From Chrysochromulina parva (lineage: Eukaryota > Haptophyta > Prymnesiales > Chrysochromulinaceae), in assembly GCA_002887195.1 (NCBI GenBank), contig PJAB01000832.1, forward strand, positions 1 through 20,072: DNA of 20,072 nucleotides, read 5' to 3'. Positions 275 through 19,924 of the stretch are shown here, piece by piece. Within the stretch, counting starts at the first letter, position 1; the number at the start of each line of letters is the position of its first letter. The position numbers were made by a program, and so were the translations under genes. The notes below the pieces were generated by a model. It saw nothing but the letters and a program-made list of their open reading frames with translations, was not told where the DNA came from and searched no databases.

Positions 275-1615
275 AGCTGAGTGCGCCTGAGTGCGCCTGA
301 GTGCGCCCAAGGGCGCCCGAGGGCGCCTGAGTGCGCCCGAGTGCGCCTAAGTGCGCCCAAGTGACGCCTGAGTGCGCCCGAGTGCGCCTGAGTGCGCCCG
401 AGTGGCGCCAGAGTGCGCCCAAGTGACGCCTGAGTGCGCCCAAGTGGCTCCTGAGTGCACCCTCGAGTGGCGCCTGAGTGCGCCCAAGTGACGCCGAAGT
501 GCGCCCGAGTGGCTCCTGAGTGCACCGCCGAGTGGCGCCTGAGTGCGCCCAAGTGACGCCTAGGTGCACCCAAGTGACGCCTAAGTGCGCCCGAGTGCGC
601 CTGAGTGCGCCCGAATGCGCCTGAGTGCGCCTGAGTGCGCCCCAGTGACTCCTGAGTGCACCCGAGTGGCGCCTGAGTGCGCCCGAGTGCGCCTGAGTGC
701 GCCTGAGTGCGCCCAGCGGCGCCTGAGTGCGCCCAGCGGCGCCTGAGTGCGCCCGAGTGGCGCCTGAGTGCGCCCGAGTGGCGCCTGAGTGCGCCCGAGT
801 GGCGCCTGAGTGATCGCTGAGTGCGCCTCATTGCGCCTGAGTGCGCCTGAGTGCGCCTGATTGCGCCTGAGTGCGTCCGAGTGCGCCCGAGTGCGTCTGA
901 GTGCGCCCGAGTGCGCCTGAGTGCGCCCGAGTGCGGCCTGAGTGCGCCCGAGTGACGCCTGAGTGACCGCTGAGTGCGACCGAGTGACGCCTGAGTGCAC
1001 CCGAGTGCGCCTGAGAGCTGAGTGCGCCTAAGTGCACCCGAATGACGTCTGAGTGCGCCTGAGTGACCGCTGAGTGCGCCCGAGTGCGCCTGAGTGACGA
1101 GTGCGCCTGAGTGCGCCCAAGTGCGCCCAAGTGCGCCTAGGTGGCGCCCGAGTGGCGCATGAGTGCGTCTGAGTGCGCCTGGGTGACCGCTGCGTGCGCC
1201 GGAGTGCGCCTGAGTGCGCCTGAATGGCGCCCGAGTGCGCCCAAGTGCGCCCGAGTGACGCCTAAGTGCGCCCGAGTGACGCCTGAGTGCGCCCGAGTGA
1301 CGCCTGAGTGTGCCCGAGTGCGCCTAAGAGCTGAGTGCGCCTGAGTGGCGCCCAAGTGCGGCCTGAGTGCGCCCGAGTGCGCCCGAGTGGCGCCTGAGTG
1401 CGCCCGAGTGGCGCCTGAGTGCGCCCGAGTGGTGCCTGAGTGTGCCCGAGTGGCGCCTGAGTGCGCCCGAGTGCGCCTGAGTGACCGCTGAGTGCGCCTG
1501 ATTGCGCCTGAGTGCACCTAAGTGCGCCTGAATGCGCCTGAGTGCGCCTGAGTGCGCCCGAGTGCGCCCGAGTGCGCCCGAGTGCGGCCTGAGTGCGCCC
1601 GAGTGACGCCTGCGT
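275..1615 (+). repeat. Degenerate 10/11-bp minisatellite array
   Basis: About 1.34 kb of back-to-back units such as GTGCGCCTGA, GTGCGCCCGA, GTGGCGCCTGA, GTGACGCCTGA and the variant GAGTGACCGCTGAGTGCG. Units are 10 or 11 bp, giving roughly 120-130 copies with no unique spacers. The plus strand carries TGA in most units. The minus strand is nearly free of stops in all frames, which creates long but meaningless antisense frames rich in Ser, Gly, Ala, Leu, Arg and His. No gene was accepted inside. Unit length and the CTGA core resemble the repeats filling introns of genes further along the window. Confidence 0.95.
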
Positions 1616-9172: not shown

Positions 9173-12100
9173 ATGATGTGGGTTGCAGGGCGAATGGGTT
9201 CCATGCGCGGGCAACCCTTGCTCGTCCTGGCAGCAGTGAGTTTGATGGTTCAGCTGTACTTGGCTAGTTGGCTACTTTCGCATGAGTCCATGCAAGCAGA
9301 CGTGCCAGTAGCTGCTGCGCGCAAGAGTGAGAGGAGCGAAACTCCAACCAGCTCTCCCAGCTCCGAGGACGCCGCGGCAACAGCACTGCGTCGAGCATCC
9401 ATGCAGTACGCCAAACGTGCAGCGCTCCGTCGATCGAGTCGGCTGAACGCGAGCCGAGCAGCGATCGAGGCTGCCGCGAGCAAGGTTCGCATTCGCCAGG
9501 CACGATTCAACATATCAGCGGCCGCCGTAGTACCAGACGCACGAGGATCAGCGCAGGAGCTGCCAGCAAGTGGTGCCATCATGATCCAAAGCGACCCGGC
9601 AATCGTACGCACAGCCACGGTGGCAAAGAGCACACCTCCATCGCTTTCGCAGCTGGAGCCCCCCCCCGCTACGCCCCCCGAGGCGAAGTTGCCCACGACG
9701 AACGAGTGGACTGCTCTGCAGGCGCGCCGAGCGTTTGGCGCCTTATGGGCCGATGTGCATCGGCGAGCTCAGCGCCTCGGCCTCAATGTGAGCCAGCAGT
9801 CCTACAAGGCGAGCGGCGGCTCGAGAACCGACGCTCATCACAACGCTCATCACGACGCTCATACGACGCACAGCAGTTCGTGGCGCCACCGCTGCCGCCG
9901 ATTCGCCGTTGGATCCCGGCACGACTATCGTGGATCCGTCTCCGCCGCGTTGCGCGCGCTTGGCCTGTGCGAGACGCACAGCGCGCACTGGGACGTGTAC
10001 TGGGGCGAGCAGTGGCTCAAGCCCGAACAGTTTGCCAACGGCGCCATCGCAGAGCATGCCCTCGTCAACTCGATCCCCGGGTTCCGCTCGTCCTTTGGCG
10101 ACAAGTTTGCCTTTGCACGCCTGCATGACAGCTGCCTGGCGCAGCGCGACGGGGCCGAGGGCTCCAAGAACAACCGCACGCGCGGTGTGAAAGGCACTGT
10201 GAAAGGCACTGAGCAGCCGCTGCGGCGCGCCTCCTTGCGAGCGTCTTCCTCGCCCTCCTCCTCGCCCTCGTCCTCGCCCTCGCCCTCCTTGTCCTCCTCC
10301 TCCTCCTCCTCCTCCTCCTTCATACCATCCCCACGGTCCGATGGCATACCATATTGCGACTGGACCAAGCGCGGCTTCAACTACGTACGCCGGGGCAAGG
10401 GTCTCTGATGACGTCTGATTGCCTCCCTCCTCACTCTGATGACGTCTGATTGCCTCCCTCATCAGGTACGCCGGGGCGAGGGTCTCTGATGACGTCTGAT
10501 TGCCTCCCTCCTCACTCTGATGACGTCTGATTGCCTCCCTCATCAGGTACGCCGGGGCGAGGGTCTCGTTGATGGGCCCGTGTCGGCGCTGCGCGCACAC
10601 GCGCTCGAGCTTGCACGCAGCCAAGGCGGCGACCGCAACGAGCTGCCGCACCAGATGTGGATCCTCAAGCCTCAGCAGTCCTTCAACCAGGTGCGCTTCT
10701 CCCTCGGATGGCCTCGGATGGCCTCGGATGGCCTCTGATGAGCTACCTAATTTTGCAGGTGGGCATATCACTCGTGCTCCTCGGCGAGGCCGACCTCGGC
10801 TCGGACGCGGCGATGCATGCATGGCTTTCTCGCTCGCTGCCCCTCGACGGATCATGGACGCTGCAGGCATACGTCAAGCACTGAGGACCACTGATGACCG
10901 ATGACCACTGATGACCACTGATAGCTACTGATGACCACTGATGACCACTGATGACCACTGATGACCACTGATGAACTCCTCTCGATCTGCAGGCATACGT
11001 CAAGCACCCGCTCCTCTATCGTGGACGCAAGTTTGACATGCGTGTGTGGGCGGTCATCACCTCCGTCGACCCGCTGCGCCTCTACATGCTCGATCGCGCC
11101 TTTCCCAAGATCTCGACAGTGAAGTACTCGACCGATACTGACGTGGTCGGTCGGCATTGCCTCTCGTCGCCCAAATGTGCGTGCTCGCAATGTGCTCGCA
11201 AGTGAAGAGTACTCGTGGAATGAGGGCCTCCGAGGGCCTCTGATGAGAGCTCTGATTGCCTCCAAAATGGCCTCTGAGGACCACTGATTGCTTACGATTG
11301 CTTACGATCCCCTCTCATCAGGTGCGTGCATGCACGTGCGCATGCCCCTCGGTGAAGGGTGCGACAAGGAACAGCTCGTGGCGCCATATCCTCCGCATAC
11401 GGCCTCTCCACTCTTTCAGCGCGGGCTGCGCTTCGGCCCAGCCTTCCGCGGGCGCGGCGACGTCGCGCACGACTCGAGCTTGTGGGAACGACAGGTGATG
11501 CATGGACGTGATTGCTTCCCTCATCAGCTGAATGCATTCATGTCGCGCACGACTCGAGCCTCTGTGGGGACGTCAGGCAACGCCGCAACTGGCAAAGGCG
11601 AACTTGCCCTGATCGCTACTGATCGCCTCTGATTGCCTCTGACGGCTCCCGATGGCTTATCGATGGCTCAGGTGATGCCGCAAGTGGCGAAGGCGCTCGT
11701 CGCGGCGGTCCTTCTTGCACGCAACGTCGAGCCACTTGCACTCCATCGGCGGCTGCAGGCGAGCGGCGCGTCGTATCGGCGCGTCCTAATGCTCTCGCCA
11801 GACTTCATCGTGGACGACTCGGGAGCTGCCTTCCTCGAAGAGGTGCGCATCCTCAGCTGATGGCCTCTGATGGCCTCTGATGGCCTCTGATGGCCTCTGA
11901 TGGCCTCTGATGGCCTCTGGTGGCTACCAATGGCCGCTGGTTGCCCTCGGTTGGCCTCTGATGTCTTACCGATGGCCACGGATGGCCTCTTTCTCCTTCC
12001 AACGTCCTCCAGGTGAACACCAACGGCTTCATGGTCGGTGACGACGAACTCTTCACAGCCCAAGCCGACACAGTCGACCTCATGCGTCTGGTGGGCGCGG

Positions 12101-12639
12101 ACGGCTGGCCTAAGCGCCCTTTGTACACTTCGCGCGCGCGGGCCCTCGTGCATGCATTCACCCAGGGGCGGGGGTACGACGAGCACGACGTGGCGCTGGT
12201 CATGCCTGTGCTGATGGCGTTGCTGCACGAGGAAGCTGCCGCTCACCCCACGAATTGGAAACGCGTCTTCCCGCCACCGCTGGGCGCGATCCCCGCCATC
12301 TCCGCAACGGCCGACGTCGAGGCGGGCCGCAAGGCGGGCAGAGACGCACTCGAGGATGTGGGAGGCATGCTCACCGATCTGGATGAAGCCACGAGGCAGT
12401 TTGTCGAATGGTTGGAGCAGTCGGCCACCGCTAAGAAGCTGCTCGAGGAGCACCTCTCAGCAGCCGAAGATGCCTTGACCTTGCATGCACAGAAAGCGCA
12501 AGGCGAGACAGATGTCACCTCCCCCCCCCATGGCACCCTGCTCCCGAACACCCTCGGGCTCCCATCCCTCGCCTCGAAGGATCTACCTCGAATTGAGATG
12601 ACACCCGTAGAACTGGACACATTGGAGATCGATCTATGA
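9173..12639 (+). CDS. Tubulin-tyrosine-ligase (TTL) family protein, seven exons
   Basis: Exons 9173-10384, 10547-10690, 10759-10866, 10993-11176, 11322-11494, 11672-11842 and 12013-12639 join in frame (2619 nt, 872 residues). TTL-family enzymes add amino acids to tubulin or other proteins with an ATP-grasp fold. Visible blocks: NSIPGFRSSFGDKFAFARL in exon 1; MWILKPQQSF (Lys445); VGISLVL; YVKHPLLYRGRKFDMRVWAV (residues 490-509), the strongest family signature; CMHVRM where relatives usually have MHLTN; and DFIVDD ... FLEEVNTNG (Asp651, Glu664, Asn666), the metal-binding end. A hydrophobic stretch at residues ~14-36 looks like a signal anchor, unusual for the family. Residues ~340-385 are a Lys/Arg then poly-Ser insertion inside the domain. 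The C-terminal ~170 residues are helical and unassigned. Intron 3 uses a GC donor. All other junctions are GT-AG, and five of the six introns are clearly repetitive. Confidence 0.88.
10385..10546 (+). repeat. TTL intron 1: two tandem 81-bp GT...AG units
   Basis: Units 10385-10465 and 10466-10546 differ at a single base (A versus G in the twelfth to fourteenth positions). Each starts GTACGCCGGGGC and ends TGATTGCCTCCCTCATCAG, so each alone looks like a complete intron. Exon 2 begins at 10547 with a third copy of the first 21 nt. Inside each unit the block CTGATGACGTCTGATTGCC is itself repeated twice. Confidence 0.95.
10691..10758 (+). repeat. TTL intron 2: 10-bp GGATGGCCTC repeats
   Basis: This 68-nt GT-AG intron has three to four tandem copies of GGATGGCCTC/TGATG in its middle and a normal acceptor (ATTTTGCAG). 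CAGGTG is present at both splice junctions. Confidence 0.85.
10867..10992 (+). repeat. TTL intron 3: GC-AG intron of TGATGACCAC repeats
   Basis: This 126-nt intron is mostly tandem TGATGACCAC (10-bp period). The 21 nt at 10861-10881, starting CTGCAGGCATACGTC, recur exactly at 10987-11007, spanning the exon 3 end plus intron start and the intron end plus exon 4 start. Splicing at CAG in both copies leaves a GC donor and gives LQAYVKHPLLY, matching the TTL consensus. A GT lies six bases inside the repeat and would insert two residues (AY). Confidence 0.8.
11177..11321 (+). repeat. TTL intron 4: GT...TCATCAG intron with short duplication
   Basis: This 145-nt phase-1 intron starts GTGCGTGC, and exon 5 also starts GTGCGTGC. 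The body has CTGATGAG, CTGATTGCC and GATTGCTTAC elements and ends CCCCTCTCATCAG. Joining gives the residues SSPKCACMHVRM in frame. Confidence 0.85.
11495..11671 (+). repeat. TTL intron 5 containing a copy of its own exon junction
   Basis: This 177-nt intron begins GTGATGC, as does exon 6. It has a 33-nt first block (11495-11527) ending TTCCCTCATCAG. Then comes a degenerate copy of the spliced exon 5/exon 6 junction (about 11542-11604) and a CTGATCGCC/CTGATTGCC block ending GGCTCAG. The copy has a 2-nt insertion that breaks the frame and runs into TGA. Confidence 0.85.
11843..12012 (+). repeat. TTL intron 6: TGATGGCCTC repeats
   Basis: This 170-nt GT-AG intron has about six consecutive perfect copies of TGATGGCCTC (10-bp period), followed by degenerate copies and a pyrimidine-rich acceptor (TTCTCCTTCC...CCTCCAG). 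Joining GAG to GTG AAC ACC gives FLEEVNTNG, the conserved TTL metal-binding end. Confidence 0.9.
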
Positions 12640-12905
12640 CACTGTATTTTTATTTTTAATTTTTATATTTTAATGGCTTGATTTTTTGCTCATTCAGAGG
12701 TCTGACTCTGACGCTCGTGAAACTGTATGGGTCGTCTTACACCGGGACACCGTGGGCAACCCACCATTCCTCGGTCTTACCGGTTTTGGTCGATCACTCG
12801 GTGAACTCTGAAGAGACGTTGCACGTTGGGTGCTGGCGTGGTAATTACAAACACTCTGTCAGAGACATGCTTGTGGGCCTTGTCGTTGCGCGTTGTCGGC
12901 AGAGG
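12640..12905. other. Convergent 3' spacer
   Basis: This region lies between the stops of the TTL gene (+) and the F-box-like gene (-). The first ~35 bp after the TTL stop are a striking A/T run (TATTTTTATTTTTAATTTTT) in otherwise GC-rich DNA, a likely 3'-end or polyadenylation region. No credible gene was seen. Confidence 0.5.
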
Positions 12906-14778
12906 TCACTGTCCTGCGCCGCTGATTGCGAAGAGGGGGAAGTGGTCCTCGGTGAGCTCCTCAACGGGGGTGCGTACAGGGGTACGTCCTTCGCGCGGCA
13001 GCCCGTGCGCCTCGCCCTCGCCCTCGCCCTCGCCCTCGTGCTCGTCTTCCTCTGCACCGTCGGGCTCCGCGACGGGCGCCGCGTCGGGCGCCGCTGGCAC
13101 CGCAATGCACAACCCAGGGAAATCTTGAACACCGCGTGACGACGCGGGACCACACGCGATCGCCCACGCCTTGCCTGCCACGTGGTGGACAAAACCGCTC
13201 CCGCCGTCGACCAGCCACAGCTGGCCGTGGCACTGGCGTGTACACTGACGCCTTGTGGGATCCCCGTCGACCAGATGCATGCTGCGCGGCGGCACGTTCG
13301 TATGCAGCTCGTCTGCAAAAGAGAGTTGAGCGCGCATGACTCTTAGCGGCATCGGTACGGGCAGATTGAGGAGAGGAAGAGGGCAGATTAAGGAGAGGAA
13401 GAGGGCAGATGAAGGAGAGGAAGAGGGCAGATTAAGGAGAGGAAGAGGGCAGATTAAGGACAGATTAAGGAGATTAAGGAGATTAGGGGCAGATTAAGGA
13501 GATTAAGGGCAGATTAAGGAGATTAAGGGCAGATTAAAGGCAGATTAAGGAGAGGAAGAGACATGGCGCGCGAGCCGGGGCACACTGGTGTGCGCATGCC
13601 AATGAGACGTAGCTGAGATGCGCGGCTGCAATCAGGCGCAATCAGGCGCGCGTACACGAGATGCGCTGCAATCAGGCGCAATCAGGCGCGCGTACACGAG
13701 ATGTGTGGCTGCTGTGGCGGATGCACTATGTACTCTTCGAGCCGACGGTAAAGCACCTCGCCGCACATGCGGCATTTGACATCCAGAGGCGCGCAGCGCG
13801 GTGCGTCGACAAGACAGCCGATACGGCACAGTCGCGGCGCCAGCCGCTGCTGCTCGAGGAGGTACCTGACGAAACATGACGAAGCACGGGCACACGCCCA
13901 CGCACGAGCATCGAGCAGCACTGTCATCAACTTCAGGCGTCGTTGGCACGTTTGGCACGGTGCACAGGGCGTTCGGAGCGTGAGCGTCCGGGCAGGGGGA
14001 GCGAGTCCGGTGGGTGGTGTGAACGAGTCCGGTGGGTGGTGTGAACGTCTGGAGCAGGGGGCGAGTTCGGTGGGGGGAGCGCGTACTCCAGCCCCTCCCG
14101 CCGGCCGATCGCGCTAAAGCAATAGAATCCGAGGGCGAGCACCTCGAGGCGCGGCAGCGCGCGCGCGAAGCTGAGCCTCGCCACATTCGGCGATCCCTGG
14201 GTGAGATCGTCATCGCGCATGGCGGCCGTCTTCGCACGCCGGCGCTGCTGCAAGCGGAGCCCCGCGAGCGAGCGCTCGGTGAGAATGCCCGTCAGGTCGA
14301 GTGAGCGCAGCAGTGGCAGCTCCTCGATGCAGGCAAGCAGCGCATCGAGGAAAGCGTCGGGATGCTCAACGCGCACGCGCCCTCGCCCCTCCGGCGGTCG
14401 CACAGCGAGCGTGTGCAGCGTCGCTGGCAGCATGGCACTCATCCGAAGCAGGCTGCTGCCATCGCTGGCGCTCAGGTTCGTGAGGTCGAGTGCACCGATC
14501 CGTGGCTTCGAGCGCAGCACACGAATTAGCGCCTCGCTGGAATAGCGACGGAGGTTGCTCCTCTGCAGTGCAAGGAAGCGCGATTCGTCGCACTCGCTCC
14601 AGTGAGGTAGGTCTGTGCGGAGCGCGGCAGCCCTCCAACTCTTGCAGATGCGAGCGATTGTGGCGAGGCTTTGGAACTCAGCGTGGGCCACGATGAGAAA
14701 TACAAGGTCGGGATTCTCGATGCACCACGACCGCGATGTGACGGCATCCGGGTCGACGTCCCCTGCAGCTTCCGACAT
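12906..14778 (-). CDS. F-box/LRR-like protein with C-terminal Cys cluster (model partly uncertain)
   Basis: Exon 1 starts at ATG 14778 and codes to about 14086. Residues ~20-52 resemble an F-box (NPDLVFLIVAHAEFQSLATI ... ICKSWRAAA), followed by LRR-like strands (IGALDLTNLS, LLRSLDLTGI, LPRLEVLALGF). F-box proteins recruit substrates to SCF ubiquitin ligases. The frame then enters a 22-bp repeat and stops, so an intron is needed; its donor is unresolved. Exon 2 (about 13930 to 13696) reads TVLLDARAW ... VKCRMCGEVLYRRLEEYIVH. Exon 3 (13312-12906), after the strong acceptor CTCTCTTTTGCAG, reads YELHTNVPPRSM ... QCTRQCHGQLWLVDGGSGF and ends in an acidic GEGEGE tail. Exons 2 and 3 join in phase 1 using donor GTACGC. 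The C-terminal part has CxxC and CxxxC pairs that may bind zinc; I do not recognise it. Exons 2-3 could instead be a separate gene. Confidence 0.5.
13313..13695 (-). repeat. Repeat-filled intron of the F-box-like gene
   Basis: Proposed intron 2 (383 nt, minus strand) starts GTACGC and ends TCTTTTGCAG. Its first part is a 40-bp tandem duplication (plus-strand copies at 13626 and 13666) that on the minus strand reads CGCCTGATTGCGCCTGATTG. Its second part (13361-13560) is the 22-bp repeat listed separately. Confidence 0.6.
13361..13560. repeat. 22-bp polypurine minisatellite
   Basis: Units of GCAGATTAAGGAGAGGAAGA plus two G repeat with a 22-bp period (13361, 13383, ...) and then decay to shorter GCAGATTAAGGAGATTAAG units. 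The plus strand is almost entirely purine and the minus strand pyrimidine. It lies inside the proposed minus-strand intron, where it would make a long pyrimidine-rich transcript. Confidence 0.9.
14003..14046. repeat. 22-bp tandem repeat, two copies
   Basis: GAGTCCGGTGGGTGGTGTGA plus AC occurs at 14003 and 14025, with a weaker third copy starting near 14065. It lies where the first F-box-like exon should already have ended, and translates to low-complexity His/Pro/Thr text, supporting an intron here. Confidence 0.8.
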
Positions 14779-15165
14779 ATACCCGACAAGGACAAAAACT
14801 TCTCATTGCATGAAGAGAGACGAACGAAACATGACGAAAAGAGTGTGAAAGAACAGTAAGACGAACCCACTCGACCACACAGAGGTCGAGTCACTCAGAG
14901 GTCGTGGTCAGTCTGTACAACAACTCGGCCACACGCGCGGCCTCTTACCTACTGTTCACGGAACGCTATATGGCAGGCGGAACGCAAGAGACGGAGATTA
15001 ATCAAGGGAATTCACAGTGACTCGGACAGTGTTTTGGTCTTCTTAAATTTCGTGTTTTCATGTTAGACGGTTTAAAGGGTCACTCCCTAACGTAGTCCCT
15101 AGAACACGCCGCCCGTCGCGTCGGTTTGGGAACTTAATGGAGAATGCGCCGCACAGCGCACTCGC
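14779..15165. other. Spacer between F-box-like and PH/membrane genes
   Basis: 387 bp holding the F-box-like promoter and the 3' UTR of the PH/membrane gene. It is locally less GC-rich around 14990-15090. A short string at 15104-15119 resembles the universally conserved 3' end of small-subunit rRNA but is not part of an rRNA gene. No coding region was seen. Confidence 0.5.
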
Positions 15166-17970
15166 TCACATGAGGTCAGCACGGTTCCAATGATGCGAGC
15201 GCCTCGACGGGTATCCAGGACCAAAAGAGAACCACGGCCGATTGTCCTCGAAGGCCTGGAGCCCGAGACGACGCGTGACGGCCGCGGCAGCCGCTAGGTA
15301 GCACAGCAGCTCGATGCCCCAGAACGCGAGCAGACCGGCGCTGCTCAGCAGGTTGGTGAGCGCCACGGCGCCCTCGCCCATCACGGCGCCTTCGCCCATC
15401 ACGGCGCCCTCGCCCAGCACGGCGCCCTCGGCCGATTCGCCCTCCTCAGCCGGCTGCGCCCGCCACGGCGCCGTCGCGAGCACGGGCAGCAGCTCGCACA
15501 CGGCACTGGCGGCGCAGAGGAGGCACGCGAGCAGCGCGAGCAGCCGGAAGATCGCCGAGGGGATCGCCGAGCAGCAATAGCACTGCGCGGCAGGGGGCAG
15601 CCAACGAGCGGCGACGAAGAGAGAGTACGCGAGAAAGTAGGCCAAGTACGCGCCGAAGAAGGCCTGCAGGAAGATGATGACCGCCTTTGGGTTGAACGAG
15701 GCGGTCTGCACGCACAAGAGGCCGATCGCATACGACGCATCCAAGAAGAAGGCGATCCCGAGCGACGTCGCGAGCACGAACTCGTGCGCGTCGCGCCGGC
15801 GCCATTCATGGAGCTCCGCCTGATGAGGGAGGCAATCAGCGGTCATCAGCGGTCATCAACGGACATCAACGGTCATCAGAGGTCATCCCATCGGCGCCAT
15901 TCATGGAGCTCCACCTGATGAGGGAGGCAATCAGCGGTCATCAACGGTCATCAGCGGTCATCCCATCGGCGCCATTCATGGAGCTCCACCTGATGAGGGA
16001 GGCAATCAGCGGTCATCAACGGTCATCAGCGGTCATCAGAGGTCATCTCATCTGCGCCATTCATGGGGCTCCACCTCAATCTCGTTGAGCATCGCACAGG
16101 TGTACGGCGAGTCGTCCTTGGACGCGGCGGATGCGGCGGCGGCGAGCGCGGCCTCGTCGCGCGCCTGCAGCAGGCGCTGTAGCGGCGCGATCTTCGTGAG
16201 CTCGCCTAGCTGGGGCGCGAGCGGCTCGAGCGCTTCGTCAAGTTTGTCAAGTTCGTCAGACCCACCCTCGTCGCCACCCTCGTCGCCACCCTCTTCGGCC
16301 ACGAGCCATTTGGAGAAGGAGATGTTCGAGCTGTTGAAGGAGCGCGAGCGCCGCGCCGACGCATGCGGGTGCGTCGGCACCGTCGGACTCCCGCCGGGCG
16401 TGAACAGTCCGCCGGGCGTGAACAGTGACGGCGTTGAACCGAAACGGTCCGCATTGAAAGTGTTCAGACGTGTGACCTTTTGCGCGTCGAGGGTCGGTTT
16501 GGCCTTGGGAGTGGCCGTGGGCGTATCGGCCGTGAACGTGGGCGCAACGGCCGTGAACGTGGGCGCAACGGCCGTGAACGTGGGCGCAACGGCTGTGAAC
16601 GTGGCCATCCTCGCGACCGTTATCCCGGGGGCGCTCCCGCTCTCCGTCGCCGCCGTGTCGCTGTCGCTGCACAGGCTCGTGGTGGTGGCGGAGGCGGCGA
16701 CGGCGGCGCTCGCCCCCGCGTGCGCGTGGTTCCCTACTTTGGAAGTCGATCCTAATTTGGAAGTCGATCCCTCCTTCATCGGGCTGGTGCACGTGTCGCG
16801 CTGCAGCGGCGACGCCCAGCGCCACATGCACTGGCAGCCCGCGCACATGCACTGGCACGCGCACCATGTGCCGCGCGACGCCCAGCACGATCCCAAGCAC
16901 GCCTCGATCGCTTGCGCCGTCTCGACGCACCGGCGGCGCACTCCGCCGCAGGCTTCGAGCACGGCGCTGCAGAGCCACGCCTGGAGCACGTACAGCGTGG
17001 CGGCGGGCTTGGAGTACGGGTGCCCAATGAGCTCGAAGAGCTCATACATGCACGGGCCGACGGTGCCGCAGAGCGAGTGGATGAAGATGCGACCCCACAG
17101 GCATGCAAGGTGAGACGGCGTCGGGCCTCGCCACGTCAGGGCGCTCCGAGAGGTGGTCGCTCCACGGGGCGTGCGCGACGAGAGCGGGCGCGGCGTCGTC
17201 TCGTGACGCGAGCCGTGCGAGGACGACGTCAGCGCTGCGATGTTGATCTTCACCCCGAGCGAAGGCACCTTGACAGGAGCGGGCACCGACTCGGGCGGCG
17301 GCTTCACGCTAGACGTGGTGGCGGCGCTCGGGAGATGTAATGGCTGTGTGTGCGCACGTGAGAGAGCGGCGGGCGCGAGCGCTTTCGAGTCGTCCCGGCC
17401 CACACCGATGCTCTCGAGCGCGTCGATCCACTGCCTCGCGAGCGTGACCGACTTGGCGGCGAGCACCCACTTCTTCTGCTCGCCAACGCACTCGATGGTG
17501 AAGATGGCCTGCTCGGATCCCTTATGCAGATTGCCGCTTACCCACGTGGTCGCGAGTGGCATCACGTCGAGCGGCATGGCATCTTGCCCGTCCGGAAGGT
17601 GACACTCGAGCTCGGTCGGCCGCAGCACAAAGAACCTGCGCGCACGGGGTACATCAATTTGCGGCATGAGTTCGGCGTGGAGCACGCGTGGCTCGGCGGC
17701 TGAGGACGCGCGCGTGGTGATTCTGGCGGCGGCAGGCCGGCGACGTCTAGGGAGTGGCGCGAACCGTTCAACAAAGTGGTCCTTCGATGGGTCGCGCACG
17801 CTCAGCGTGCCCGCATGGATGACGAGGTCCATGGTTTTGGGGTTGATCGAGGGGTTGACGACGCACTGCCCCTCACGGACGGCAGCCAGCGCTTCGGCGG
17901 GGTTCTCGAAAATCAGCTTGTGAAGGAAGGGAACAGTTGAGAAATTTTCTGTCGAAAACTTGAATATCAT
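15166..17970 (-). CDS. PH-domain protein with polytopic membrane C-terminus, two exons
   Basis: Exons 17970-16075 and 15819-15166 join in phase 0 to 849 residues. The start is the first ATG; two codons of open frame precede it from GTG. Residues about 108-188 look like a PH domain (RARRFFVLRPTELECHLPDG ... KKWVLAAKS ... ARQWIDALESIG, with the conserved C-terminal Trp181). PH domains bind phosphoinositides or proteins. Residues ~287-383 hold two or three moderately hydrophobic segments and a Cys-rich stretch (GTWCACQCMCAGCQCMW). Then comes a low-complexity part with a seven-residue repeat (TFTAVAP) and acidic GGDE repeats. After the junction (NEIE-AELHEWRRR) come four strong membrane helices (EFVLATSLGIAFFLDASYAI, FLQAFFGAYLAYFLAYSLFV, FRLLALLACLLCAASAVCEL, SAGLLAFWGIELLCYLAAAA). 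A six-residue GEGAVM repeat lies before the last one. The family is unknown; it may be a membrane-tethered lipid sensor or transporter. Confidence 0.75.
15820..16074 (-). repeat. Intron made of three tandem GT...AG units (85, 75, 95 bp)
   Basis: On the minus strand, units 16074-15990, 15989-15915 and 15914-15820 each start GTGGAG(C/T)(C)CCATGAATGG-type sequence and each end CTGATTGCCTCCCTCATCAG. The bodies are CTGATGACCG and TTGATGACCG repeats in varying number, explaining the different lengths. Exon 2 starts with a fourth copy of the leading sequence (GCGGAGCTCCATGAATGG), in which the GT has become GC. Confidence 0.95.
16515..16605 (-). repeat. 21-bp coding tandem repeat, four copies
   Basis: GGCCGTGAACGTGGGCGCAA recurs with a 21-bp period and encodes TFTAVAP repeats on the minus strand in the PH/membrane protein. 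The 21-bp period keeps the frame. Confidence 0.9.
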
Positions 17971-18216: not shown

Positions 18217-19566
18217 CTATTTTGGGGCTCGTTGTGTATCCATGTTCGGAGGAGGCTTGCGTGCAGCCGCACAGCCCCAAATTGCGGCCAGTCCTTCGAG
18301 AATGCTCATCGAGCCACTGTGCAATGTATCCATGGTGCAATCGCGGGCGTGGGCCTTGTCGGCCGGCATCCCCACCGCTGGTAGCTCGTCGAAATGCTCC
18401 TTGAGTGGCGATGGCGGCGCGTCGAGGACGTACTGCTCCTCCAAGGGCAACGGCCCACGGTCCCAGCCCGCCTTGCGCGCACAGAGCAGCGCGTTCTTGC
18501 AGCTCGCCGTACCCTCCGAGTCCTCGCCGCCCAGCTGCGTCCGCATCGCATTGTCGCGGATCACGTCCACGCGCACGCCGCCGGAGCCGCCGCCGCCCGA
18601 GCCGCCGCCGCCGCTGCTGCCGCCGCCGCTGCCGGCGCCGGCGCCGCAGTCGCCGGCGAGAGCGCCGCCGGCGGGAAGCGCGTGCAAGAGCCCACAGAGC
18701 TCCTCGACCTTCGCCTCATACGGATCGACGCCACGCAGCTTCGCTTGGGCCTTGAGGAGAGTGTCCGTGCGCTTGTCGAGACAGCATGGCACGAGCACGA
18801 GTGCATCGAGCTGCACACAGCCGCCGAAGAGCTCGATAGCCCGTGGGGCGAGTGACCCGCATAGGTGCATGCCGACTGCGATGCATCGGCCTCGGTCGCC
18901 CATGTAACGGTCGCTCATGACCGTTGCCGCACCTTCTTGACAGTCGCCGAGCTCGCCGCAGTGCTCGCCACTGCCGCCGCCGCCGCCGCTGCTGCTGCTG
19001 CTGCCGCGGCCGCCGCTGATGCTGTCGTCGACCGCTGCGGCAAGCGCTGCCGTGAGCTGAGCCGCAAACGCGCTGCCCATGATGTCCGCGCGCACGAATC
19101 GCAAGTTGGGAAGGGCGCCCACGTGGCCGGTCTTGATGCGCTGGTCGATGTCCACCATGATCACGCGTGTGGACGGGAACTCGAGCGCCAGGATGGCCGA
19201 CATGAAGCCCTTGCCCGAGCATAAGTCGACGATGGCCGCGACGGGCGCCGAGGCCTCGTCGGACGCGAGCTGTCGCTCGAGCACTTCGACGATGGCATAG
19301 GCTTCGATGAGCTCCTTTTTGAGCTGCTTGCTCTGGCGGCTCAACATCGGCGAGAATTCGGGCGCGTCAAGCAGCTGCTGCAAGTACGGAGCCGCTTTGA
19401 ACCGTGCGAGGTGCCGATTTTGCACGATGCTGGAGCCGTTTAGTAGGTAGTCGACAGCGCGGCGAGGGCGTGAATGTGCCGCCGAGGGTGGATCAGCGGC
19501 CAACGCCGGTTCGCACAGCTGCGGCAGAGGGCGTGAATGTGCCGCCGAGGGTGGATCAGCGGCCAA
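18217..19566 (-). CDS. Class I SAM-dependent methyltransferase, 5' end unresolved
   Basis: The coding frame reaches TAG at 18217-18219 and is open upstream of 19566 as far as a stop near 19700, with no ATG. The first in-frame ATG is at 19347 (MLSRQSKQLKKELIEAY), but residues before it (AVDYLLNGSSIVQNRHLARF) look conserved, so an upstream exon probably supplies the start. SAM motif I is IVDLCSGKGFMSAILA, with an acidic strand-2 end (VIMVDID). Later blocks are VGMHLCGSLAPRAIELF and LVLVPCCLDKR. The HxCG and PCC blocks resemble Methyltransf_32-type (METTL25- or TRM13-like) proteins; the substrate could be RNA or protein and is not decided. Two Gly/Ser runs encoded by GCC/CTG-type triplet repeats (about 18575-18640 and 18965-19010) interrupt the domain and are probably disordered loops. 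The C-terminal ~100 residues are unassigned. Confidence 0.8.
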   Translation of the reverse strand: MAADPPSAAHSRPLPQLCEPALAADPPSAAHSRPRRAVDYLLNGSSIVQNRHLARFKAAPYLQQLLDAPEFSPMLSRQSKQLKKELIEAYAIVEVLERQLASDEASAPVAAIVDLCSGKGFMSAILALEFPSTRVIMVDIDQRIKTGHVGALPNLRFVRADIMGSAFAAQLTAALAAAVDDSISGGRGSSSSSGGGGGSGEHCGELGDCQEGAATVMSDRYMGDRGRCIAVGMHLCGSLAPRAIELFGGCVQLDALVLVPCCLDKRTDTLLKAQAKLRGVDPYEAKVEELCGLLHALPAGGALAGDCGAGAGSGGGSSGGGGSGGGGSGGVRVDVIRDNAMRTQLGGEDSEGTASCKNALLCARKAGWDRGPLPLEEQYVLDAPPSPLKEHFDELPAVGMPADKAHARDCTMDTLHSGSMSILEGLAAIWGCAAARKPPPNMDTQRAPK

Positions 19567-19590
19567 CGCCGGTTCGCACAGCTGCGGCAG
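19465..19590 (-). repeat. 63-bp perfect tandem duplication
   Basis: Copies 19465-19527 and 19528-19590 read identically. The period is 21 codons, so the methyltransferase frame passes through both copies (AADPPSAAHSRP twice) without a break. On the minus strand each copy contains CCGCAG, so part of the array may instead be an intron end. Confidence 0.9.
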
Positions 19591-19924
19591 ATGGACGAGC
19601 GGCAGAGGGACGAGCGGCTGCGCGCGCCGAGGGACTGTGCCGGTAAAGGAGTGTGAAACAAAATTTGGTGGGCCGGGACTCCACGGGTCACGTCAAACTT
19701 GTTTCACGTTCACAAGTGTTTCACGAATTTCCGTGACGATTTTGGTTACGCAGGGCCGGTGCGTGCCCAAATAGAGGCGTATGATATGGATATGTATCCT
19801 GCCATGGTATATCGCGTATAGTCGCCGAAAGCAGCGCCGAAGCAGCTGTGCCTCTGCCTAAGCCGTTGTAGATGTAGTAGCCTCCCGTGGTTGTTCAACG
19901 CTCGGTCTCGGGTGGGCAGCACTC
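19591..19924. other. Spacer, possible 5' exon of the methyltransferase
   Basis: 334 bp between the open methyltransferase frame and the stop of the right-edge gene. A minus-strand ATG near 19806 opens MAGYISISYASIWARTGPA followed directly by GTAACC, which could be a short first exon and donor. I could not confirm it. The stretch around 19660-19810 is less GC-rich, promoter-like. Confidence 0.3.

Follow-up and report, generated by a model that had tools for sequence, protein, structure and literature searches.

A dispersed and probably intron-making element with long, variable flanking duplications in genes of Chrysochromulina parva

How does a coding sequence come to be interrupted by an intron that begins with a copy of the next exon's own first bases? 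The question is raised by a 20,072-nt stretch of the haptophyte Chrysochromulina parva (contig PJAB01000832.1, positions 1 to 20,072; here called the window, and C832 among our contigs). In this stretch, the start of the next exon is copied at the intron start (7-24 nt) in four of the six introns of a tubulin-tyrosine-ligase-like (TTL) gene and in the intron of a gene on the minus strand. A reading made from the letters without database searches (hereafter the sequence-only reading) had taken these introns for an introner-like family with duplications of about 20 bp and tandem amplification. That proposal is now supported beyond the window, by dispersed copies of a 3′ module and by an excess of intron-start/exon-start matches over shuffled pairs. 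In what follows, X is the copied exon sequence and E the element between its copies. Introns with a copied exon start have in common the dispersed 3′ module CTGATTGCCTCCCTCATCAG. The family is built as X-E-X, and removal of X+E restores reading frames; that these segments are spliced out is what we infer from the sequence. The wider issue, the bulk origin of introns, is a long-standing question.

The introns of the window and the gene that holds most of them are as follows.

9173..12639, plus strand: TTL gene, seven exons (872-aa joined frame, Pfam TTL, 12 homologues)
9173-10384, 10547-10690, 10759-10866, 10993-11176, 11322-11494, 11672-11842, 12013-12639, plus strand: TTL exons
10385..10405, plus strand: first X copy of intron 1, with 5′ splice site GT (21 nt, one mismatch to the exon 2 start)
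10406..10465, plus strand: element E of intron 1, first unit, 60 nt (related copies at other loci)
10466..10486, plus strand: internal X copy of intron 1 (identical to the exon 2 start)
10487..10546, plus strand: element E of intron 1, second unit, with 3′ splice site CATCAG at its end
10547..10567, plus strand: X copy, exon 2 start
10691..10758, plus strand: intron 2, duplication no longer than GTG
10861..10881, plus strand: first duplication copy of intron 3, with GC donor; CTGCAG lies in exon 3 and GCATACGTCAAGCAC in the intron (10987-11007 is identical over all 21 nt)
10867..10992, plus strand: intron 3, GC-AG, filled with CTGATGACCA decamers (the decamer stretch matches other contigs)
10987..11007, plus strand: second duplication copy of intron 3
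11177..11321, plus strand: intron 4, first 8 nt GTGCGTGC again at the exon 5 start
11495..11671, plus strand: intron 5, GTGATGC again at the exon 6 start (7 nt plus CAG)
11540..11600, plus strand: interior of intron 5, where the exon 5 end and the exon 6 start stand joined in a degenerate, uninterrupted copy (compared by eye with 11459-11494 and 11672-11694)
11843..12012, plus strand: intron 6, CTGATGGCCT decamers, no duplication
15820..16074, minus strand: intron of the minus-strand gene, three units of X (24 nt) plus E (16074-15990, 15989-15915, 15914-15820)
15796..15819, minus strand: X copy, downstream exon start of the minus-strand gene

Joining the seven TTL exons gives an open frame of 872 residues. 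It matches Pfam TTL at residues 436-537 (E=1.2e-16), a span that contains introns 2 and 3 and leaves intron 1 outside, and it has 12 homologues, among them those of Haptolina ericina (49% identity) and Chrysocystis fragilis (34%), the remaining 10 being unnamed or "hypothetical protein". In intron 1, the start GTACGCCGGGGCAAGGGTCTC and the start of exon 2, GTACGCCGGGGCGAGGGTCTC, agree over 21 nt with one mismatch. Because a further copy lies inside the intron, intron 1 consists of two 81-nt units, each a 21-nt copy of the exon 2 start followed by a 60-nt element ending in CTGATTGCCTCCCTCATCAG, and the exon copy itself stands directly after. The identical 21-mers that flank intron 3 overlap both splice sites, with 15 nt past the splice site and CTGCAG before it. 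The upstream part of the degenerate copy in intron 5 was also found by alignment (C832:11527), and the units of the minus-strand intron measure 85, 75 and 95 nt. Introns 2 and 6 have only GTG in common with the next exon, which is chance level, since 0.48 of GT/GT pairs share at least three bases. At least seven leading bases in common were found in none of 456 GT/GT and none of 148 GC/GC exon-start pairs from different contigs; thus, introns 1, 3, 4 and 5 exceed the splice-site consensus, and the observation of X copies in the window is confirmed. The lengths given by the sequence-only reading for TTL introns 1 (21 nt), 3 (15/21), 4 (8) and 5 (7 plus CAG) are borne out by the coordinates. For the minus-strand gene, then called a PH gene, the duplication is present, but it measures 23-24 nt instead of about 18. 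The same reading had noted that intron 1 does not duplicate the upstream exon end, which is right (TAC against CAG), but intron 3 has 6 nt in common upstream, and intron 5 holds its copy of the junction.

The module is not confined to this locus. On both strands of the 45.07-Mb draft genome, the 21-mer CTGATTGCCTCCCTCATCAGG, a 20-mer with a trailing G, has 436 exact copies (242 and 194 per strand) and its reverse sequence none; at up to three mismatches, the 20-mer has 3,731 copies and the reversed control again none. The exact 20-mer has no copy in either the viral or the prokaryotic collection, in which records near the Chrysochromulina genome may be absent. A looser motif was dropped, as its 450 matches were mostly due to chance. 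Among the sampled genes, introns with E occur in such unrelated ones as TTL, UCH, PP2C, TRM, TPR and Arm. A sequence common to many introns in unrelated genes, the mark of an introner, is therefore present.

The second mark, a locus-specific match between intron start and exon start, for which the sequence-only reading had called for a genome-wide check, was sought in a sample that combined the window and 20 stretches of 10 kb with 30 loci drawn by contig order from the exact 21-mer list, seven loci picked for matching intron 1 and nine loci picked unseen. A search with an 18-mer (at most three mismatches, ending AG) found 81 ends, and 53 of them are the last of their cluster, the next 300 bases downstream holding no further end. 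For each of these, a segment of 60 bases following CAG was aligned to the upstream DNA, and a site passed with a score of at least 24 and a start within the first three bases. Of the 53 cluster-last copies, 30 passed, whereas the rate among 1,269 shuffled pairs from different contigs was 0.95%; with any alignment start allowed, the figures are 34 of 53 and 8.75%. In an earlier ungapped test, a score of at least 10 was reached by 21 of 39 ends, by 1.4% of unmatched pairs and by none of 640 pairs with the same first three bases. Hence the match is locus-specific and above that of random pairs, as for an introner with a target-site duplication. Seven of the nine unseen loci pass, C210 stays just below (11 identical bases) and C233 shows nothing. 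At three of the 30 passing sites (C55, C93 and C189), the sequence after CAG is another array unit, so that they reflect unit repetition and not an exon copy; C189 passes from unit to unit alone, its stretch having been cut off within an array. Without these three, whose matches run to 58-60 nt, X has a median length of 21 nt (interquartile range 17-25, range 9-41, n=27), and 25 of the 27 lie within 14-28 nt.

The surroundings of X are less uniform. The matched copy follows CATCAG, as in an inner unit, at nine of the 30 sites, and no CATCAG precedes it at the other 21, where the base before is G in 17 and the two bases are AG in 10 (by eye). The first two bases after CAG are GT in 31, GC in 18 and GG, GA, CC and CT in one each (n=53). 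Exact direct repeats in general do not behave in this way: a scan of 220 kb on both strands (window and 20 stretches of 10 kb; repeats of at least 12 nt at a distance of 40-400, with plain tandem arrays and low-complexity repeats left out) found AG before the second copy in 36 of 533, no enrichment. Thus, the X rule is a property of the E family rather than of all introns or all repeats. These data also bear on an explanation without any mobile element, in which a strong 3′ splice consensus is combined with decamer slippage and the X matches are nothing but splice consensus. Introns 2 and 6 would fit it, and decamer repeats are abundant (about 130 copies at 277-1612). However, it can hardly be true in the face of thousands of 20-mer copies against none in the reversed control, and of X lengths mostly of 14-28 nt against the matched controls.

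Are the segments introns? Removal of X+E joins open frames at 12 loci, while the retained segment is stopped in two or three frames. Pfam was searched for six of the 12 joined loci and for L030, and at five loci a domain crosses the junction: UCH (2.8e-42), PP2C (3.2e-29), TRM (1.9e-15), TPR in L030 (1.2e-15) and Arm (1.5e-10). In the 120 bases downstream, the sense strand codes better in 41 of 53 copies against 0.494 at random places. At C35 (L030 1440-1520, C35:29064-29144), an 81-nt X+E is stopped in all frames and its removal restores the TPR frame; the cut reads GA-AG, or GT-AC if shifted. A separate observation was made at L043 (C80:30605-30655), where an E without duplication lies between TCG and GCG in an alpha-galactosidase-like frame, with ends read by eye as CC-AG or GC-CA.

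We consider it probable that these introns come from a dispersed introner family, in which the 3′ splice site belongs to the element, a long and variable target duplication provides the 5′ site and tandem amplification follows. E would consist of a variable number of CTGA-type repeats of about 10 nt followed by CTGATTGCCTCCCTCATCAG, which likely comprises a branch-point region, a pyrimidine tract and the 3′ splice site. When E enters an exon, the exon sequence at the insertion point would be duplicated as X, usually over 14-28 nt. The first X copy would become the intron start, for which a chance 5′ splice site is needed (GT, often GC, apparently GA once), the exact end of E would serve as the 3′ splice site, and splicing out of X+E would give back the original coding sequence. 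The repeated X would then allow X+E units to multiply in tandem, and later insertions may nest at the same place. Window positions 277-1612 hold a minisatellite in which the decamer CTGAGTGCGC, similar to the CTGAGTGC repeats of some E elements, stands about 130 times; it is possibly a reservoir, or a sign of decamer slippage.

The two boundaries of E differ, and this suggests how it moves. The 3′ boundary is exact, with X starting 0-2 bases after CATCAG at 30 sites, although the sites were selected by their 3′ end and this constancy, being partly built in, counts to that extent against the reading. The 5′ boundary is ragged: in 15 of 27 copies there is no TGA from three bases before to eight after it. 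At the X/E junction, the end of X resembles what stands before the same E sequence at other loci more than expected: for the 17 of 27 loci with donor context, the microhomology is 0.88 nt, compared with 0.45 nt after permutation (p=0.0015). Target-primed reverse transcription leaves a long variable duplication, a constant 3′ end and a ragged, microhomologous 5′ end. As E shows these traits at both of its ends and in the length of its duplications, we favour a target-primed, reverse-transcription-like insertion; both the direction of events and the enzyme are what we infer here. In a more specific version, the template of target-primed reverse transcription into exons would be an excised intron RNA, whose 3′ end is exactly the 3′ splice site; each copy would arrive with a ready 3′ splice site, the 5′ splice site of the RNA being truncated away and a new one coming from the target duplication of about 20 nt. 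This version is, on balance, an unlikely one; if true, it would mean that new spliceosomal introns can arise by a retro-route that spreads by itself. Two other readings of the ends were rejected. A terminal-inverted-repeat structure (CTGATGA...TCATCAG) was considered and dropped, since it would need a constant 5′ end. An introner of the DNA-transposon type (miniature inverted-repeat transposable element) does not agree with an X varying over 9-41 nt and an inconstant 5′ end of E, no search for inverted repeats as such having been made.

A number of observations weigh against the introner reading, and some of them lend themselves to other routes. By the alignment criterion, 23 of the 53 cluster-last copies are without X, and two of the six TTL introns break the rule. 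Such copies may owe this to age, to indels or mismatches (seen by eye in C58 and C771) or to another origin. Among the five ends counted at the loci that had been picked for matching intron 1, only C479 passes outright, and C46 passes with an offset; C771 and C1923 look duplicated by eye though below the criterion, and C593 does not. Four sites pass only with extra bases after CAG, namely C46 (6), C16:31746 (13), C832:11527 (14, TTL intron 5) and C40 (23), and an element with an exact end should not leave these. The choice of frame by length looks wrong for L060 and L037, the Filamin match ends short of the junction and the Melibiase match at it, both under curated cut-offs, and in 12 of 53 copies the antisense strand scores better downstream. 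As to an enzyme, five reverse-transcriptase (RVT_1) matches were found, all low-scoring and barely over the cut-off.

Another of these points is a weak anticorrelation between the lengths of X and E (rho -0.43, p=0.06, n=19), which a constraint on intron length would produce, and so would an initial duplication of fixed size. The latter would be the case if an exon segment of about 65-80 bp was duplicated in tandem, giving introns of the form AG/GT...AG/GT, and E then overwrote the 3′ half by gene conversion. Unit lengths of 67-81 nt in 12 of 27 cases agree with this, as do the common tandem arrays (28 of 81 ends are followed by another in their cluster), and the accessible text of PMC3443670 presents tandem duplication as an established route of intron gain. 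However, an upstream AG is required, and intron 1 (TAC), C54 (CTC), C87 (TGA) and C35- (GGT) are without it, as AG stands before the first copy in only 10 of the 21 copies with no preceding CATCAG. Moreover, direct repeats ending at AG are not in excess in the 220 kb scanned apart from plain tandem arrays, and the clustering of X near 21 nt is left unexplained, so that we hold this order of events to be very unlikely. Nor can the introns be counted as AGGT tandem duplications, their interior past X being family sequence.

The remaining contrary points concern local duplication. At the nested loci L042, L049, L053, L065 and TTL intron 5, the upstream exon is duplicated too (by eye), and local duplication is therefore part of the process. 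At C46 (L055, C46:7887-7971, minus strand), an extra GTAACC stands between E and a 26-nt X, and GTAACC also follows E at C1050, so that it is possibly a donor flank. Both features fit break repair with template switching. Here, a staggered double-strand break with overhangs of about 20 nt would be filled in to give X, the filler would be copied from E introns by microhomology-driven template switching, and selection would keep the products that splice. This accounts for the data nearly as well as the target-primed route does, since it covers the microhomology at the X/E junction, the nested and upstream duplications, the C46 bases and a unit of L042 joined via ATCA (by eye), and Daphnia offers a precedent (accessible text of PMC4202315). 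On the other hand, the filler is one and the same dispersed family and meets X 0-2 bases from CATCAG in 30 of 53 copies, a possible donor flank was seen at C46 alone, and the Daphnia repeats reported there are of 4-12 bp. We regard break repair as possible, though doubtful, and retain the target-primed introner as the preferred reading.

Gain of the TTL introns, rather than their loss, is suggested by a metagenomic relative, P0002, which has no insertion at any of the six TTL intron positions (identity is 74% when aligned and, by the homologue search, 63% across 88% of the query). Elsewhere, it has a 54-residue insertion after KFDLR and, after FTAQ, a 10-residue repeat (ASDGFRWLPM and variants). 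These look like introns read through in translation, the 10-residue repeat being such as a 10-nt DNA repeat would encode. P0002 is presumably a genomic sequence, and decamer introns would then have been gained independently in both lineages. It is also possible that P0002 is a transcript with retained introns, or that the TTL introns were lost in its lineage. The other TTL homologues may be transcripts and have no bearing on gain, and a search for an empty site of the C35 TPR gene found only its own locus.

An Rfam scan of the window at gathering scores gave no match. A DNA search with the TTL region found no DNA paralogue, and the 89 off-locus matches listed all lie in introns (40 of 741 candidates scored). 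Two copies of a 40-bp unit at 13625-13703, which on the minus strand ends CTGATTGCGCCTGATTGCAG, may be a further X-E-X unit, and the GGGCAGATTAAGGAGAGGAAGA array at 13359-13550, with a 22-bp unit, is a separate repeat family. An open frame with a Methyltransf_32 domain lies at 18220-19692 on the minus strand and overlaps a 63-bp tandem repeat (19454-19591).

How does the E family compare with known systems? Insertions of short and long interspersed nuclear elements (SINE/LINE) leave duplications that vary between roughly 7 and 20 bp; their 3′ end is constant, and their 5′ end is ragged and shows microhomology. The E family is like them in all three respects and unlike them in that the end of E coincides with the 3′ splice site and that no partner element came to light, the RVT_1 matches being the five low-scoring ones. 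Among introners, as far as the accessible text of Gozashti et al. (2022, PMC9860276) goes, duplications are of 3-9 bp in some earlier families, 4 bp in Symbiodinium, 4 bp in a Chrysochromulina metagenome-assembled genome and 8 bp in Aureococcus. Symbiodinium introners bring the 3′ site and obtain the 5′ site from the duplication, and those of the Chrysochromulina assembly bring the 5′ site. The E family resembles these introners as a dispersed and probably intron-making family in genes, after whose splicing the coding sequence would usually be restored precisely, and it would have the 3′-site arrangement of Symbiodinium; it differs in its variable duplications (median 21 nt), the lack of a constant 5′ end and the tandem X-E arrays (PMC9860276).

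Similar partial likeness is found elsewhere. Daphnia neo-introns have nested repeat events as well, but their short repeats are attributed to staggered breaks, and the accessible text describes no dispersed family (PMC4202315). The introner elements of Amoebophrya share repeated introns, direct repeats at the boundaries and non-canonical splice sites; there, the direct repeats measure 3-5 nt and the inverted ones 8-20 nt, whereas the E family has long direct repeats and no consistent 5′ motif (accessible text of PMC7789003). Rogers and Bendich (2025, PMC11782384, in its accessible part) have reported direct repeats of 4-30 bp near 213 introns of many kinds, so that long repeats in such places have some precedent. 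An introner family with duplications of about 20 bp was not found in the accessible literature, including PMC9860276, PMC7789003, PMC12768974, PMC3443670 and PMC4202315, with subscription papers outside this scope. Within that literature, the E family is thus of a known kind and its splice-site arrangement has a precedent, while the length and variability of its duplications, the ragged 5′ end and the tandem arrays make up a variant not found described. Many duplication-bearing introners have been tied to DNA transposons through short duplications and inverted ends (PMC9860276, accessible text). The long, variable duplications, constant 3′ end and ragged 5′ end of the E family point to a different insertion chemistry, and its thousands of copies in a compact genome make that chemistry testable.
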